Shown in pieces: positions 1-20,100 of a stretch of DNA of 64,000 bases. Below the pieces are notes generated by a model. It saw nothing but the letters and a program-made list of their open reading frames with translations, had not been told where the DNA came from and searched no databases. Source of the stretch: Pomacea canaliculata (lineage: Eukaryota > Mollusca > Gastropoda > Architaenioglossa > Ampullariidae); contig NC_037595.1 in NCBI RefSeq assembly GCF_003073045.1, forward strand, positions 11,028,074 to 11,092,073, given 5' to 3'. Made by a program: the position numbers and the translations under genes. Numbering within the stretch: the first letter of the stretch is position 1; every line of letters starts with the position of its first letter.

Positions 1-2700
1 TGGCCGGCTACAAAAGTCTCCATCATTACCAATTTGAATAATTAACTCAAAACATTGTAAATCTCAGTACCAGCAGAGAGTGTCTTTTATTAGACAATTT
101 ATTCTTCGTTCTTCTCGATATTCCAGACTTTGTCACTTACTGATGATCTCAGTCTACTTTATTATAATGAGTATACAGGACAGTGACGCTCTCTCTGAAT
201 GAAAAACGGAAGCCGTAGACACCTGCCGGAAACACAATGTTTTAATCCGGACAATATCGTCGAATTATGTCTTTAAAAAGTAAAAACAATGGTACGTAAT
301 TGATGTCTATAAAGTCAGCCGTTCTAAAGACTCCTATAAGTGTACAGGCTACATACTCACATGTATGTGTATACAAGAACGAATAAAGTATTGTCAATGT
401 GGCGAACTATAGTCATCACACAGTGCTGTCTGAATGATGAAGAATTTACCTCGTACAGATGGAAGATTGGTTCAATAGATGTAAGGAAGGATTTCAACGC
501 GCTAAAGAAAAAAAAAAGAAAGAAACTCTTGTGTTGTAAGATGTAAGACGTTAGACGATCCTTTGCAGTGTGTTTAAAAAAAAAGCTTGTCAAGTGGTCT
601 GTTGACCTGTGAGAAGCTATACGGGGAGCGAACTCTGCATTATACTTACTATTAAGATTTGACCTACTTGAGTAAGTTGACCGTGAAATGTAAGTCATGT
701 TGTATCAACGGAGCGGCTACATGCTGTCATCAGTGGCCAGATAATCGCAATTAGCTTTGCTACCGACAGTTTGCTCAACATCAATTGCACTTTACAACGC
801 ATCACCCCATCGTCGGCTAATGCGTCGGCGAAGCACAAACCCGTCTTCTCATTCACTCCGGTTGATCACGTGGCAGTTGTATGGCTTCTGCCTCCTATTT
901 CCCTCCTTCCCGCACATGTGGAATTTCCCCGCCGCCCTCATAAGAACTGGAAACTGCACAGTCGCTTCTATATCTGGGTCAGAGACATCAGTTGACGGGG
1001 TAGCTCCGTCCCGTTTTCGTCATCTACCCCGCTCTTCTTTGCCACTATTTGCACCCGACACTGGTTGACCTCTTGACCTATGTGCGCTCGAAGACCAGCG
1101 GTATCGAGGTCGTATTCTACTGACTGTAATGCAAGTTCTTGCTTTCTTCGCCGGTTAAGGACTCTCCCGGAGGTGCCAGTGACCTATTGCACTTTCTTGT
1201 CAAGTCGTTTCATCACAACCATCGCTTGTCGATAACTATATGGGATCACGCACAAGGGCGGACAACTTTACCTGGGCAAACGCCAAGCTGCCACAATGCG
1301 TAGTCTCCCTTTGGCTTACAAGTACGTGTTGCGATATCAGCACACTGTACAGGAAAAGTATCGCAAAACATATTGCTCTGGGGCAAGCTCTGTAGTCTTG
1401 AAAATATATAAGCTTTGATTAATGACAGTCGGCACCAAAAAATCTAAAAAAATTCTTGATGGGATATTTTTATGCACTTTTATTCATTCTGTGCGCTCTT
1501 CCTAGAGTCTGGCGCAGTTCCAAGGAGACTGTATGACATCTGTTATTTACTGGGTGCCCCTAAGAAAGTATTTGTCTGTACTAGTCACAGTCTTCACGCT
1601 CCTTCCTCTGTCCAAGTGTTGTTCGAATGAAAGTACTGGTGAATGATGACGCAGTAAGAATGAAGAGTGTAAATAGGTTATCAGAAAAAACAGGGCTGGA
1701 ATGTAAAGTCGTAATGGATATCATCTGGAACAGTGGGCGAGTGAACATAAAAATTAGCCAACGTGTTTCGGAGAAAATGACTTCATTTCTGTCCGTTTTC
1801 GTGATATATTTTTTCTTCTTCTTCTGGATCTGACAGCGTGAGTTTTACAAAACCACACAGCTCTGCTTTTTTTTCTATTTTATCTATTTTATTCTAACCT
1901 GTGCTATAATTTCGGGTTTGATTTTTTTTTTATTGCGTTCGTGTTTTTGTCTGTTCCCTCGTCAGCTGTAATACTCTTCTATTGTCTATGATAATCTGGT
2001 AAATGAACACTACCTCTTATGCTTGTTGCATTCCTCGTTATATCTAGAATAAAGTTTATTCAGATTAATGCGAAAAGAAATGCACAATATAAAGTTGTTA
2101 AAAATAATTATTTTAATTATTCTTTAGTAAAGTAAATATCTCAGTATAATAAATTTATCATGCAGCTATGTGATATTTTACCTTGAAAAATTACAAAGTA
2201 GGTTTTGACGTGTAAAATAAAATTAAAATTTTAAATAAAACTGTTGTACATAATAAAACAGAAATCTCATTCATTTTGCAATAATATACACTCCTAGCTT
2301 CAGCTAAAGCAACCTTGATTAAAAGTTCGAAAACTTTCGACAACTCGCGCTCCATCCTTTAGGACGACAGAACTCTTCCTCTTATCATCTTGAAGGTATT
2401 GGTGACTATGGAGATGAAAAAAAAAATGATGAAAACCGCGATTAAAATAAAAAAGTTTCCATGCAGCAGCATTGCCCCAAGTGTAACCCAGGGCCTGTAT
2501 TTCTCTTTGTGGTGGTTACGGAAAATGCCAGTGTATGTAGGTCTCATGCACTACAGTGTGAAAGTATATCAGTGCTGCAGTCTGGAAACAAGATGCTTGA
2601 ATGTCCATCACAGATGTTTGCTTACGGTCACAGCACACATACGGCCCGCAAACATTGTTTTGAGCAAGACATGGTCTTTATCCAGACATTCTAAATAGAT
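1..2700. other. No gene recognised
   Basis: I see no exon with plausible splice sites or a recognisable protein family in this stretch. Open frames of up to about 100 codons exist but look like chance frames in AT-rich, low-complexity DNA. Several T- or A-rich runs are present, for example near 1800-1930 and 2100-2250. It could hold upstream regulatory DNA of gene A or the end of another gene outside the window. Confidence 0.5.
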
Positions 2701-2714
2701 GCTATTGCTGTTGT

Positions 2715-2779
2715 CGTTGTTGTGGATTCTGCCGTTGTTGTGGATTCTGTCGTTGTTGTGGATTCTGTCGTTGTTTGTC
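2715..2779. repeat. 18-bp minisatellite, about 3.5 units
   Basis: Units of cgttgttgtggattctgt repeat three times almost perfectly, at 2715, 2733 and 2751, followed by a partial unit. Open frames across it on both strands are by-products of the repeat. Confidence 0.85.
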
Positions 2780-2979
2780 ATTATGGTTGTTATTGTACTT
2801 TTTCGTTTGTTGTTATTGGTTTCGCTGTGGATGCTTCTATTTTTATCATGTTTGTTGTTGCTGCAAAAGCCGATATGGCACAACCCTGGCGACACTTATT
2901 GCAAATAAATCTGAAGTGATGACTTCATGATATGTTCTTGACCTTCTAAACGATAACCCTGTTCCGCCCTCCAACCCCT

Positions 2980-3090
2980 AGGAAAATTTCTACTTCCTTC
3001 CATTGGCTGGGATCTCTCCCCCTCTCCCAACAAGTAGGAAAATTTCTTGTTCTTTTCCACTGGCTGACATGATTTCTCCCACCCCAACCA
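2980..3090. repeat. Imperfect tandem repeat, two units of about 55 bp
   Basis: The motif aggaaaatttc begins at 2980 and again at 3036. Each copy is followed by a pyrimidine-rich stretch, a ttggctg or ctggctg motif, and tctccc. The two units differ at many positions, so this is an old local duplication. Confidence 0.5.
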
Positions 3091-3810
3091 CCCTCAAGCT
3101 CTTGTTTGTTATTTCCTTTTACTATTTGTTGCTACACGCGCGCTGCGCAACACAAGTAGGTCACAGCTGGCTTTGTAGGTCACTGACCTCAGCGGCAGGT
3201 TAGCTAACTCTCTTGGAGTCTATGTTTTTGGTGGTGTAGGAGGCTGGAAGAGCTCATCGCTTGCATTATTTCTCCTGTCGACATCTCGGTGTTGTGTTTA
3301 GTGGCGACGGTGTCAAGGAGTAGAGACCAGCGTTTCATCTTTTCTCTCACAAACAACTACTGCATTCTTCTCGGTTCACCTCAGTTTGCCGTGTTTTCAA
3401 GGGAAACCAGGAATAAAGACATCATTCTAATGAATAAACGTTCCACGACAGATTGCTTCCAGTCAGCAAAAAGTTTTTTCTCGGTAAGCCTGAAACTTTC
3501 ATATTTCATCACAGCAAGTCGTTAAGTTCTTGGACAAAGTTTGCTTATTTAAACATTGAAATTTAGGAGTGAGTGTCACAAACTTCACTCCATTGATGCC
3601 AGCATTGTGTTACACAAGCTGTGACATTCATTCTCACGTTGTTTGTTTATTAGGAACGGACCGTAAAGACTGAACATCTGAGGGAAAGTCGAATCTTGAA
3701 CTTTGGTTTGCCTCCGTCTCACCTCCTCTCCCTGTAAAAACAGCGACTTGCAGTGTCAACACTTTATCTTCTTTCCGAGCAGGACAGACAATTCGTGACC
3801 AGTCTCCAAG

Positions 3811-14100: not shown

Positions 14101-17100
14101 CCAGGGAATAATGTTAGTGACATCAAGAGAATACTAGAATGATATTGAGTAATCTTGAGAATATGAAGAAATGTTGTCACATGAAACAGCAAAAGGTGAT
14201 CATCACTTCAGTTTACTCAGTGCAGCTGAAGGTCGCAGAAGCGAGTGAAGCTAGGGGAATGGAATCCAGTGAATAGATGCAGACAGTTCGCACTTCAAAT
14301 ACAATTATATACATTACATACAGTCCTATTGCAAAACAGAAGAGAAAGAAAACGCAGCAGAAGCACATGTAAACATGAAGGCCCAACACTTTTATCCAAA
14401 TCGAGCCACGACAACAAAACATAAACAATATCAAGGAGAGCCGATCCCCTCAGCCTGTTAGGCGAAGGGACAGAACTCTCTATCTTATGCAAGATGTGCC
14501 AACAGTGTCTAGCCATTATTAGTCTGGCATCATGGCTATCGAGTAAAACTATGATATCCAAGGACTCTCTAATCAAAACATCTGATTATAGACAAAGGTA
14601 ATGTGTATACTGTTTCTTCTTACTGAGTATGTAGGAAATAACGAAAGCTCCTGTGCTGGCGGCACCTTGCAAAAGATACATGGACAGGAAGACGAACACG
14701 TTTGGAGCAGCCGCTGCCACGCCTCCTGTCAGCATCATCATGGCCACGCCCACAAAAAACATAGGCCGACGCCCGAACCTACAAAACACAAACTAAAACT
14801 ACATTTTCATGACTTTTTTCCTCCATTGTGTCATTCCAGACCTCACCGTGAGACCCTGTCATAGTTACATTACTTCTTTCTTGAGCGCCTCGTTGCCGCT
14901 CTATGGTCTCGTAGGCATTCCATGATTCTTAGACGCCGGTTCACAAATTTGCGATACTGCGTACGATCGACCGCCCTGGAGTTCAGGTCTCCGAGAGGCT
15001 TCCCTGTCCATTCGAGCACATTAGTAAGCCAAAGTTTCTTTTGTTTACCTACTCGCCTCTTGCCCCTAACGCTACCCTGCATCGCTAGTTTCGGAATGCC
15101 GTCATGTCGAGTGACATGGCCGAACCATCGTAACTTATAGCGCTTGACGGTTGAGAGAAGTGGTTCTTGGTATCCCACAAGGCTTTGGATCAGGTCTCGC
15201 ACGAACTTGTTCGTCTTTTCTTCTCTGTAGGAGATATGGAGCAATCTCCTATAGCATTTCATTTCGAACGCCGCTATCTTCCTCTCCTGGTCTGACAGCA
15301 GCGTCCAGGTCTCGCAGCCATACGTCAAGACCGGGATGACAAGGGACTTATAAAGTCGGAATTTCGTAGCGAACGAGATCCTTCCGCTGTTCCATATCCG
15401 ATTTAGCCTTGCCATCGCTACGGTCGCGGCTTGCAACCTGGCGTGAACATCGTGTGCACTTGACCCATCCGCCGACATAATGGAACCCAAGTATTTGAAG
15501 GTCTGAACCTGCTCTAGAGTTTTCCCGTTCAGTTTGATGTCAGCCTCTGCTGGGCTGATGGCGTTTACCAGGACTTTACTCTTCTCCGCATTGACGTGCA
15601 TCCCGTACTGGTTAGCGCATGTGTTTACGCGGTTGGTAAGGTCCTGCAATTCTTCGTTGCTGCTCGCTATTAGGGCTATATCATCAGCGAAGCGAAGATT
15701 GCTTATCGGTCTTCCTCCGATCGACACCGAGGATTCGTGGCCTTCCAACGCGTTGCGCATCACCTTTTCCAAATAGATGTTGAACAACGTCGGAGATAGG
15801 ATACAGCCCTGGCGGACGCCTACGGTCATGGGGAACGGCTCCCCCAGCTTGTTATGCAACCGAACGGTACTCGTAGATCCATCATAGAGGCCTATGATGG
15901 TCCGGATCAGACCCTCGTCCACATGGAATGACCGAAGGGTGTCCCATAGCCCCGCGTGCCAGACCCGGTCGAAAGCCTTCTTGAAATCCACAAAGTTTTG
16001 GTGTATTGGAATACCATGTTGCGTGTGTTTCTCCACCAGCACTCTCAAGGTGAAGATTTGTTCTATCGTGCTTCGGCCGGCCCGGAATCCGGCTTGCTCC
16101 TCTGCTAACAGCGGTTCTGCGGCCGCTGTTAGTCTCCGTTGTAGCACGCGCAACATAACCTTGCTAGGATGACAAATCAGGCTCAGCGTCCGGTAGTTCT
16201 CGCATTTGGAGCTATTTCCAGACTTTGGCAGCGGTACAACGACAGACCGTAGCCACTCCTTCGGCCACTGCTTGGTTCGCCAGATTTCGCGACATATTTT
16301 GGTCAGCACGCTCGTCAGCTCCTCGCCTCCACCTTTGATGAGTTCCGCTGGGACATTATCGATGCCAACCGCTTTCCCTGGTCCCTGATTGCTGCTTCCA
16401 CCTCCGCTCGTAGGACTTGTAAGTCCGGTACTTCCTCTGCGGGTGGTGGTGCCCCTTCGAGTACGGTCGCATCTGTTTCGATGGGGGCGTTGTACAGCTC
16501 ATGGCAATATTCCGTGAGTCGATTGAGTATTTCGGTTTTCCCTTTGACCAGCTTCCCGTTCTTATCCTCAATCTTGGTTATGCCTTTTCGCGGACCATCG
16601 TTGGTGAGCGTTTTCAACGCTGCGAATGCTTTCTTATAGTCGCCCCATTTGATTCCCTCGTCGACCTCGTCGCACTTTGCGTTTAGCCACGCCTCCTTCG
16701 CCGCCGCTATGTTTTTCTGCACTTTCCGGTGTACTCTCCTGTATGCCACGTCGGCTTCAGGGCTTCCCCGCCTTTTTGTCTTCAAGGTTTTCCTTAGCTC
16801 ACAAAGTCTGAGAACTTTCTTTGTGATCCAAGGCACCTTGGTTGGCGGCTTCCTCCCTAGCACTTTGTCTGCTGAGGAGTGAAGCACCTGCTTGACGTTT
16901 TCCGCGAGAGCGTCCACGTCAAGGTCGGAATCAAGCAGGTTGAGGGCAGAGAACCTGCCCCCCACCTCGACCTGAAAAGCCACTGCGTGGCCAGGGTTAC
17001 TGAGTTTCTCCGTGCACCAGCGAATGCGTTTGCTGTTCTCCCGTTTCTGCTGCGAGACTTTCAGGCGCAGGGAAGCCATCACGAGTTTGTGGTCTGACCC

Positions 17101-20100
17101 GATGTCCGCACCCGGGTACACTCGTGTCCCTGCCTGCAGTAGGCCTGAACGGCAGCTCTGGGGGATCAGCACATAGTCGATCTGGTTCTTGACCGCGCCG
17201 TCGGGTGAAGTCCAGGTCGCTAACCTTGAAGGTTTGTGCGGGAAGAGCGTGTTCGCAAGGGTCATCTTATGGGTTCCAGCGAACTCAAGCAAGCGCCATC
17301 CGCGGTCGTTGGTCGTTCCTAGACCGTATTGACCCACGGTGCCGGCCCACTTTTCAAATGCATCTGGGCCGACTTTGGCGTTCCAATCTCCCACCACGGC
17401 TAGAAAGTCTTTCTTGGGGATCCCCCTCATCGTTTCCTCCAGCTGCTCATAGAACACCTCTACCTCGTTGTCCCCTCGATCGGCGTGAGGTGCATGAGCT
17501 ACGATGACTGAGACGTTTCGTGGTCGAGCCGCTATACGAATGGTTGCGAGTCTGCTCGAGATGGGCTCCCAACTTAGGACTGCCGCTGCCGCTCTGTTGT
17601 GGACGAGAAAGCCAACGCCTAGTTGCCTGTTCTCACTGCCACTGTAGAACAGCTTGTGTCCGAAGGGAGTACCCTCCTCTCCTGAGCTCGTCCACCGCAT
17701 CTCGGCAAGCCCTATGACGTCCCAGTCGTACCGTTCCAGCTCCAGACAGAGCTCGAGCACTTGACCACACTTGTGGAGCGTACGGACGTTCCACATGCCA
17801 ACCACTATTCTCTTCAACAAATTAAGTGCACGTACCTGCTGAGCGGATGTTTTCACACTCTGATTCTTTTCTGCTGGAGGGCGATGGGCTCGCCGTGGGT
17901 CCCTTGCCTTTTTGGTTCCGGCCACAGTCTGGTGTCGGTCGCGCATCCGACGCCCCAGGAGTCTGTCTTGTCCCGTTGTCCCTTAGACTTGACTTTCTTC
18001 ACCTGCGTTAAGGGTCTTCCGCCTCCGTGTTGGCAGGCGCCAACGGAGATGGCCGACCTTATTATCCTGGGCGACGTCGGTGCCAGTATGAATATTGTGT
18101 GGCTGTAACTGAATCATTAGAATTTAATAGGCTGTTACGTAGTGGTGGTGCCCACTCCTCTCCACTCCGGTTTGTTTGTCGGGGTTTTCTCCCCTAGCCT
18201 GACTAAGGCGGGCGAGTGCAGGTTTAACTAAGTTCTAACTAAGGTCTATGTACACTATTTACATCTATTTACATCAGTCTTCTCAGTAATCATATATACA
18301 CATATTTACAAGAGGCGTGCCAGCGGTACACGGGTACGGGCGCTGGCGAAGGGGGGCGTCCCACCCTGACCTTCGTACGAGTTTCTTCGGCTTTTGGCTG
18401 CCCTCACAGCTCTGCAAGTGCGAAATGGGACTGCCAGCGAGTCTGTGCTTGGAATTTGCTCACAGTCGCGGCCGATCGATTTCAGTGGGGTACCACCGCA
18501 TACCATCACTGTCAGTATAGACGTCCGAGGCCATTGAGGTATAACTTCCCGTTACATCCCTTCCTTCGAGTTTATATGACTTCTAGTGGTTTTGAGTATG
18601 GCCATAGGGGCCCTCTCATTTTGCACTATAAGTTTACGCGCAGTGACCGTCGCGAGACGGACCGCACGCCCATGCCTGAGATCCAACTACGAGCTTTTTA
18701 ATCGCAACGACTTTAATATACGCTATTGGAGCTGGAATTACCGCGGCTGCTGGCACCAGACTTGCCCTCCAATAGATCCTCGTTAAAGGGTTTAAAGTGT
18801 ACTCATTCCAATTACGGAGCCTCAAAAGAGTTCCGTATTGTTATTTTTCGTCACTACCTCCCCGAGCTGGGAGTGGGTAAGTTGCGCGCCTGCTGCCTTC
18901 CTTGGATGTGGTAGCCGTTTCTCATGCTCCCTCTCCGGAATCGAACCCTGATTCCCCGTTACCCGTAGTCAACATGGTAGGCCTATCACGTACCATCGAC
19001 ATTTGATAGGGCAGACATTTGAAAGATGCGTCGCCGGCTCGAGGCCATGCGATCGGCACAAAGTTATCCAGAGTCACCAAAAGGGACGGGGCCGAAACCC
19101 CGACTGGTTTTGAACTAATAAAAGCGCTCTTTCCCGGCTGTGACACCGGGTCGGAGCTGGTTTGCATGTATTAGCTCTAGAATTGCCACAGTTATCCAAG
19201 TAGAAATGGATCATCTAAGGAACCTCGACTGATTTAATGAGCCATTCGCGGTTTCACCGTACGAGGGTGTGAACTTAGACATGCATGGCTTAATCTTTGA
19301 GACAAGCATATGACTACTGGCAGGATCAACCAGAATGCTGTTTGTGGTTTGCAATACCGTAACCCCCACGAAGCAGTCGCCGCGAGGCCGCGGGTTCTGC
19401 ATACGTGGCCGTGCAATTTCATTCGGTAAATGCTTCTCGCTCTTTTTGCAACCGAATCATCGGTTCAAACTTTTCCACTTGCTGAGCGTTCACCCGATCG
19501 ACACGGGCGCGCTCTTTCACTCGAGACACAGTCAAGCGTTATTCGATACGCCGACGCGGCTGGCCGAAAGGAGCACTACGACCGAACCCCTCTCTGCTCA
19601 ACCAGCCCACGCCTGAGCCGTGGGAAACGCGACAGCGAAAGCCGCGCGAATCGCCAGCGAGCCAACCCGTACCACACCTTCTTCGGTCCGCGTAGTAAAC
19701 CGGCTCGCGGTAGGACGGGACGCAGACAACGATCGCTTTCGACCGAGGGCGTCGCACGCCGAGCGAGCACTCATTTGCCAACGATAAAACCACAACTGGG
19801 TGAGCACTGCATGGCTAATGGTAACCTTCCTCCATTTGCCACCTTCACTTTCTAGCGCCTTTCGGCACACCTGCTCCCCATGGCACACCTGCTCCCTGGC
19901 GGCACCTTGCAAAAGATACATGGACAGGAAGACGAACACGTTTGGAGCAGCCGCTGCCACGCCTCCTGTCAGCATCATCATGGCCACGCCCACAAAAAAC
20001 ATAGGCCGACGCCCGAACCTACAAAACACAAACTAAAACTACATTTTCATGACTTTTTTCCTCCATTGTGTCATTCACGCTCTCATAATTCATAGCAAAA

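Follow-up and report, generated by a model that had tools for sequence, protein, structure and literature searches.

A pre-rRNA/LINE chimera with a 181-bp target duplication in Pomacea canaliculata and the proposed residence of its LINE in 18S rRNA genes

Long interspersed nuclear elements (LINEs) of the R1 clade (R1, R7) carry a separate first open reading frame (ORF) ahead of the ORF for an apurinic-type (APE) endonuclease and reverse transcriptase (RT), and one of them, the APE-type R7 of mosquitoes, is found in 18S ribosomal RNA (rRNA) genes. The present report concerns a 64,000-nucleotide stretch of the Pomacea canaliculata genome (C6:11028074-11092073 in the contig numbering used here; hereafter the window), in which a LINE is joined at its 5' end to 18S rRNA and its 5' external transcribed spacer (ETS), the whole enclosed by long direct repeats. 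There is good support for a retroposed chimera of precursor rRNA (pre-rRNA) and LINE with a target duplication, as proposed in an earlier note on this DNA; part of that support comes from a second chimera on contig C8. The source is probably a LINE, APE-type and RTE-like, that takes 18S genes as its target, shares their pre-rRNA transcript and at times carries this leader along when it moves. R8 of Hydra, a member of the R2 group, is likewise a non-long-terminal-repeat (non-LTR) element tied to 18S genes (PMC5035012, PMC3636483). In the R2 group, however, a PD-(D/E)XK-like endonuclease follows RT (PMC3636483), whereas the APE-type endonuclease of the window LINE precedes it.

Other described systems share single features with this locus. 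R2 is expressed as a co-transcript of the ribosomal DNA (rDNA) unit (PMC3954772), and its RNA is freed by a ribozyme resembling that of hepatitis delta virus (PMC3774820). Co-transcription with rDNA is proposed for the window LINE as well, but the rRNA leader was kept and no ribozyme match was obtained at the LINE head (window 18000-18900, up to E 10); a scan at the gathering threshold only gave none at the 18S/LINE joints of records L002 and L041-L046. LINE-1 forms chimeras with abundant RNAs, 18 of which carry 28S rRNA fragments, 83% in sense orientation and in pieces of 50-482 nt (PMC13174262). Like the present locus, these have rRNA joined to the 5' end of a LINE, as a rule in sense; they differ in that the leader here runs from a putative transcript start to 18S nt 698 and heads of the window LINE lie behind 18S at other places too. 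The RTE-related Rex3 of Erythrinus was suggested by its authors, as a hypothesis from co-localization in fluorescence in situ hybridization (FISH), to have inserted in 5S rDNA and spread with rDNA (PMC2944182); it differs from the window LINE in the rDNA concerned and in its FISH basis. A 588-bp RTE LINE fragment in Lepidoptera rDNA lies in spacers, not in 18S (PMC10257491). Neither an RTE-like element in 18S nor a pre-rRNA/LINE chimera was found in the available text of the open-access literature searched (including PMC3585787). The same literature yielded no paper on long target site duplications (TSDs) with RTE or non-LTR elements; for SR3, TSDs of 10-12 bp are reported (PMC1291365).

Anatomy of the window chimera and class of its LINE

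The earlier note had read the locus as two identical 181-bp repeats around 5059 bp of 5' ETS, 18S and LINE on one strand, a layout borne out by comparison of the repeats, by the Rfam match RF01960, by the ORFs and by Pfam. The features are as follows.

14656..14836, minus strand: TSD copy on the LINE 3' side, fully matching 19896-20076, containing a stretch like a splice acceptor and the greater part of a transporter-like exon
14837..18636, minus strand: LINE, 3,800 bp, with a leader of about 690 nt, endonuclease ORF, RT ORF and a short 3' untranslated region with the end GGTGAGGTCTG
14870..16309, minus strand: RT ORF, 479 aa (Pfam RVT_1, E 9.1e-40)
16315..17946, minus strand: apurinic-type endonuclease ORF, 543 aa (Pfam Exo_endo_phos, E 9.3e-11)
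17947..18636, minus strand: LINE leader (head), whose matches elsewhere all lie behind 18S
18637..19334, minus strand: 18S rRNA, local nt 1-698, functional-type (RF01960 and comparison with array copies)
19335..19895, minus strand: 5' ETS from the putative RNA polymerase I (Pol I) start, first 14 nt duplicated, with ETS candidates elsewhere in the genome
19896..20076, minus strand: TSD copy on the ETS side, identical to 14656-14836, in the exon interrupted by the insert

The repeats match at 181 of 181 bp, and the insert between them (19895-14837) measures 5,059 bp, with ETS, 18S and LINE to its 3' end in minus-strand order. The RF01960 match covers 19333-18715 (E 4.6e-171), and the 698-nt extent of 18S (19334-18637) comes from comparison with the majority of array copies. 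The ETS was identified through 39 other candidates scored out of 105 in the genome, by which is meant here and below the 440-Mb, 24-contig assembly; several of the locus records (L numbers) drawn from it overlap one another. Between 18637 and 18636, 18S nt 698 passes directly onto LINE nt 1, with no clear microhomology at this joint. At the other end, the insert opens with a 14-nt copy (19895-19882) of the ETS start that comes next, which looks like the trace of an end-to-end template jump.

The LINE is of the APE type, with an APE endonuclease ahead of RT and a target duplication on insertion. In phmmer searches the RT ORF matched RNA-directed DNA polymerase and LINE-1 ORF2p structures at E 7e-24 to 3e-23, and R2-named chains at E 1.3e-15 and weaker. 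The R2 group (R2, R8, R9) is defined by an endonuclease after RT; here the APE domain lies upstream, and no Pfam nuclease match occurs within the RT ORF. The leader (17947-18636) has no minus-strand ORF of at least 80 aa and so differs from R7 with its R1-clade first ORF, although truncation may have removed such an ORF from this copy. Neither R8 nor R7 fits the anatomy of the window LINE. The RTE clade has a single ORF with endonuclease and RT, no first ORF and no RNase H; in the window copy no first ORF of at least 80 aa and no RNase H match (Pfam, E 0.001) were found, and its endonuclease and RT ORFs lie in different frames. The label RTE is provisional and taken from sequence motifs.

A second chimera and LINE heads behind 18S

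The second chimera, on C8 (about 28355671-28364546; L002, L040, L060, L053), repeats the window order of ETS, 18S and LINE, with a LINE that belongs to the window's family. It is flanked by direct repeats that match at 70 of 72 bp, and its flanks, like its duplication, differ from those of the window (181/181), so it represents a separate event. The two LINEs are 81.1-84.9% identical in four partly overlapping pieces that cover LINE nt 160-3793. The C8 copy additionally carries an insert of about 262 bp in its 18S and one of about 3.1 kb in its LINE; the former (L002, about 1931-2193) has a T-run, lies between short repeats and is SINE-like (resembling a short interspersed nuclear element). 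An assembly error or DNA-repair product that fused rDNA and LINE pieces is very improbable as an account of the window. It is true that rDNA-like repeats are common in this genome and that the locus is known here from the assembly alone, but the 181-bp duplication is exact, the putative transcript start and the LINE 3' end form the two limits of the insert, and the C8 locus has a like anatomy and its own duplication.

Both chimeras begin at ATGGGGAG, within a few bases. In rDNA-like copies the ETS start GGGGAGCAGG comes after GGCGCTATATATAT or similar. This start is present in 41 of the 47 locus records searched, and 37 of these 41 have an upstream motif of the CGCTATATATAT type; the four that lack this promoter-like motif are the overlapping records L001, L009 and L039, all from the window place, and L002 from C8. 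We infer that Pol I starts at this common position. Because the two chimeras share the start and lack the motif upstream of it, both look like reverse transcripts of RNA that began there and read through 18S into the LINE.

When the LINE head (window 18000-18636) served as query, nine matches were obtained from eight places, one of which is the window itself (all eight candidates scored; more distant heads would escape detection), and 18S stands upstream on the same strand in all eight, weakly so at C10. The places are C6 (window), C8, C14:17815345, C14:16120579, C2:18325654, C14:17812325, C14:17808974 and C10:18399677. The four on C14 and the one on C2 are decayed rDNA-like units with exact spacer repeats in all five of their records, and three of the five have the promoter motif upstream of 18S (C14:16120579, C2:18325654 and, through the neighbouring record L044, C14:17815345). 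The C10 place has a 60-nt 18S piece, without an Rfam call at the gathering threshold, that ends at nt 694, four bases from the window break; its LINE match spans 59 bp at 85% identity. The 18S side extends to the motif AGGAATTGACGG in six of the eight places (four exact, two with one change). A constant joint right after AGGAATTGACGG was not borne out on both sides.

These heads bear on the chief rival, in which the LINE resides elsewhere and a pre-rRNA fragment was joined to LINE RNA by a template jump during copying, or by RNA ligation before it, with copying up to the fragment's 5' end. Precedent exists in the LINE-1 chimeras with abundant RNAs, 28S rRNA fragments included (PMC13174262), the window and C8 joints fall at different 18S and LINE positions, and the 14-nt repeat at the window 5' end resembles a template jump. 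Such a jump or ligation would account for the two chimeras, but copying of pre-rRNA would not yield heads behind 18S in units that keep spacer repeats, three of five with the promoter motif upstream, and no head-bearing place without 18S was found among the eight candidates. The template jump is therefore rather unlikely. The earlier note had left the choice between a LINE in an 18S gene and an enzyme jump to a cut pre-rRNA; the eight heads behind 18S, five of them in rDNA-like units, lend the former better support and weaken the latter. It had also reasoned that a LINE family with a clean 5' end elsewhere and a unique 18S joint would speak against a retroposed chimera. That does not hold for this family, with its heads elsewhere behind 18S, yet no second instance of the precise joint at 18636 was found in the genome, and the 18S breakpoint is not constant.

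The 18S of the chimeras is of the functional type. Window and C8 differ by 2 mismatches in 697 nt without gaps, while 34 other records that aligned (35 tried; some shorter, some overlapping) reach 86.8-95.0% identity with gaps. For the C8 V4 region, with 40 of 77 candidates scored, the best other matches reach 92% across most of the query and at most 96% across roughly half of it. Because other 18S matches fall well below the identity of the chimera 18S, functional rDNA is probably missing from the assembly. A further alternative is a single insertion of the LINE into a decayed rDNA-like satellite, with the chimeras derived from transcripts of satellite units and not of functional 18S genes. 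Every promoter-bearing 18S/LINE unit found is decayed, and several array copies share 95-97% identity with the window ETS, as such an origin would have it; the mutual 18S identity of 99.7%, against at most 95.0% to other aligned records, makes it improbable.

Decayed rDNA-like units are themselves numerous (L003-L038), and contain the promoter motif, ETS, an 18S that often bears a deletion in the V4 region, 5.8S in a few, and spacer. Some are in tandem at about 3 kb, often distant from chromosome ends, as in L027, L034, L035 and L032 (C10:15.52-15.54 Mb). Pieces resembling 28S adjoin 18S in L008, L021 and L045.

Residence in 18S with Pol I read-through would explain why LINE heads lie in rDNA-like units, why both chimeras begin at one position and why their 18S is of the functional type. 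Several observations weigh against it. Occupancy of functional 18S genes by the LINE has to be inferred, as the assembly apparently offers no functional unit for inspection. Three of the array places form a tandem with a spacing of about 3 kb, and all five resemble one another; being related, they stand for few independent events. The joints differ on both sides, at 18S nt 698 and LINE nt 1 in the window and at AGGAATTGACGG and about LINE nt 86 in C8, where the LINE sequence begins within about 8 nt of the motif and 18S is altered just ahead of it. The window joint may have arisen from an older one by deletion of 18S and LINE-head sequence on its two sides. In each of the five array places, AGGAATTGACGG is separated by 84-110 nt from the point where blastn first matches the window LINE, and this stretch may be either LINE head or decayed 18S. 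Compared with 18S beyond the motif, it beats 200 of 200 shuffles in L043, and 41, 45, 112 and 53 of 200 shuffles are equal or better in L041, L042, L044 and L045; compared with the window LINE head, 5 to 11 of 200 are equal or better in L041, L042, L043 and L045, and 56 in L044. Since the L043 stretch aligns with 18S past the motif, the array joint may sit further downstream. At C2:18326179 and C2:18462324 a LINE 3' end is followed by 18S from local nt 950, a DNA-level insertion into 18S that speaks for residence there; nt 950 is another site, however, and the two junctions are probably one event duplicated. A deleted LINE (from nt 1311) lies behind 18S near C2:18323800. Finally, the window ETS (19335-19881) is 84% identical to that of L002, whereas 18S reaches 99.7%; a single homogenised array would predict otherwise, and either divergent spacers in the source units or events of differing age would explain the contrast.

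Copies outside rDNA and the interrupted exon

The LINE 3' end, used as query, matched 36 times in the genome; apart from the copies described here, these matches are short or distant. Nine 5'-truncated copies lie outside rDNA and start between LINE nt 712 and 3610: C4 (712), C5 (2478), C1 (1064), C14:14364313 (931), C7 (2499), C2:21250601 (966), C2:21254542 (721), C13 (1455) and C11 (3610). No rRNA match was found in their loci at the gathering threshold, which is in line with the proposed residence in 18S. Target duplications of Rte-1 in C. elegans are said to measure about 200 bp. Long duplications as a trait of the present family were unsupported in the seven 5'-truncated copies compared. 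Flank matches of the C4, C1, C14, C5 and C7 copies were short or low-complexity only (C4 has a duplication of about 8-11 bp, by eye only), and the flanks of C2:21254542 match over 37 bp at 78%. The flank match of C2:21250601 was rejected as a TSD, being only a 1.1-kb segmental duplication: two LINE copies at C2:21250601-21257588 (L056, L057, L082, L083) have flanks that are 95% alike over 1,138 bp in a tandem segmental duplication. A 30-bp match at 80% near the C10 head, apart from the insert, was likewise rejected as a target duplication.

In the window, the 181-bp duplication takes in a stretch that resembles a splice acceptor and the larger part of an exon that encodes a transporter-like segment. 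The duplicated exon matches MFS_1 at E 0.004, below the Pfam cut-off, and the neighbouring exon Sugar_tr at E 1.1e-5, above it. Downstream of the insert, within 14624-14836 on the minus strand, stands one intact exon copy (about 14778-14624) together with its acceptor-like stretch. Because the TSD copy at the LINE 3' end continues into the remaining exon and a donor-like GT, splicing of the host gene past the insert may still occur.

The proposed route and its meaning

In the reading favoured here, residence in 18S with co-transcription, the LINE would insert into 18S rRNA genes and the Pol I promoter, to judge from the common 5' end, would drive its transcription as part of pre-rRNA. The uncut co-transcript of ETS, 18S and LINE would then be reverse-transcribed by target priming outside rDNA, in at least two separate events, with copying from the LINE 3' end up to the Pol I start and duplications of 181 bp (window) and about 72 bp (C8) left behind. 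A bolder version, offered tentatively and more doubtful than that reading, is an 18S-specialised lineage of APE-type, RTE-like LINEs without a promoter of its own. Its mobile RNA would comprise the full Pol I co-transcript, with pre-rRNA as a regular 5' leader, portable to new sites that include protein-coding exons.

If 18S residence is true and the RTE label holds, this habit has evolved in one more LINE lineage, in addition to R8 of the R2 group and R7 of the R1 clade. The window and C8 copies between their TSDs would then be physical records of read-through pre-rRNA, through which the expression of an rDNA-dwelling LINE and its exit become testable, and there would be a route for ETS and 18S pieces into coding genes.

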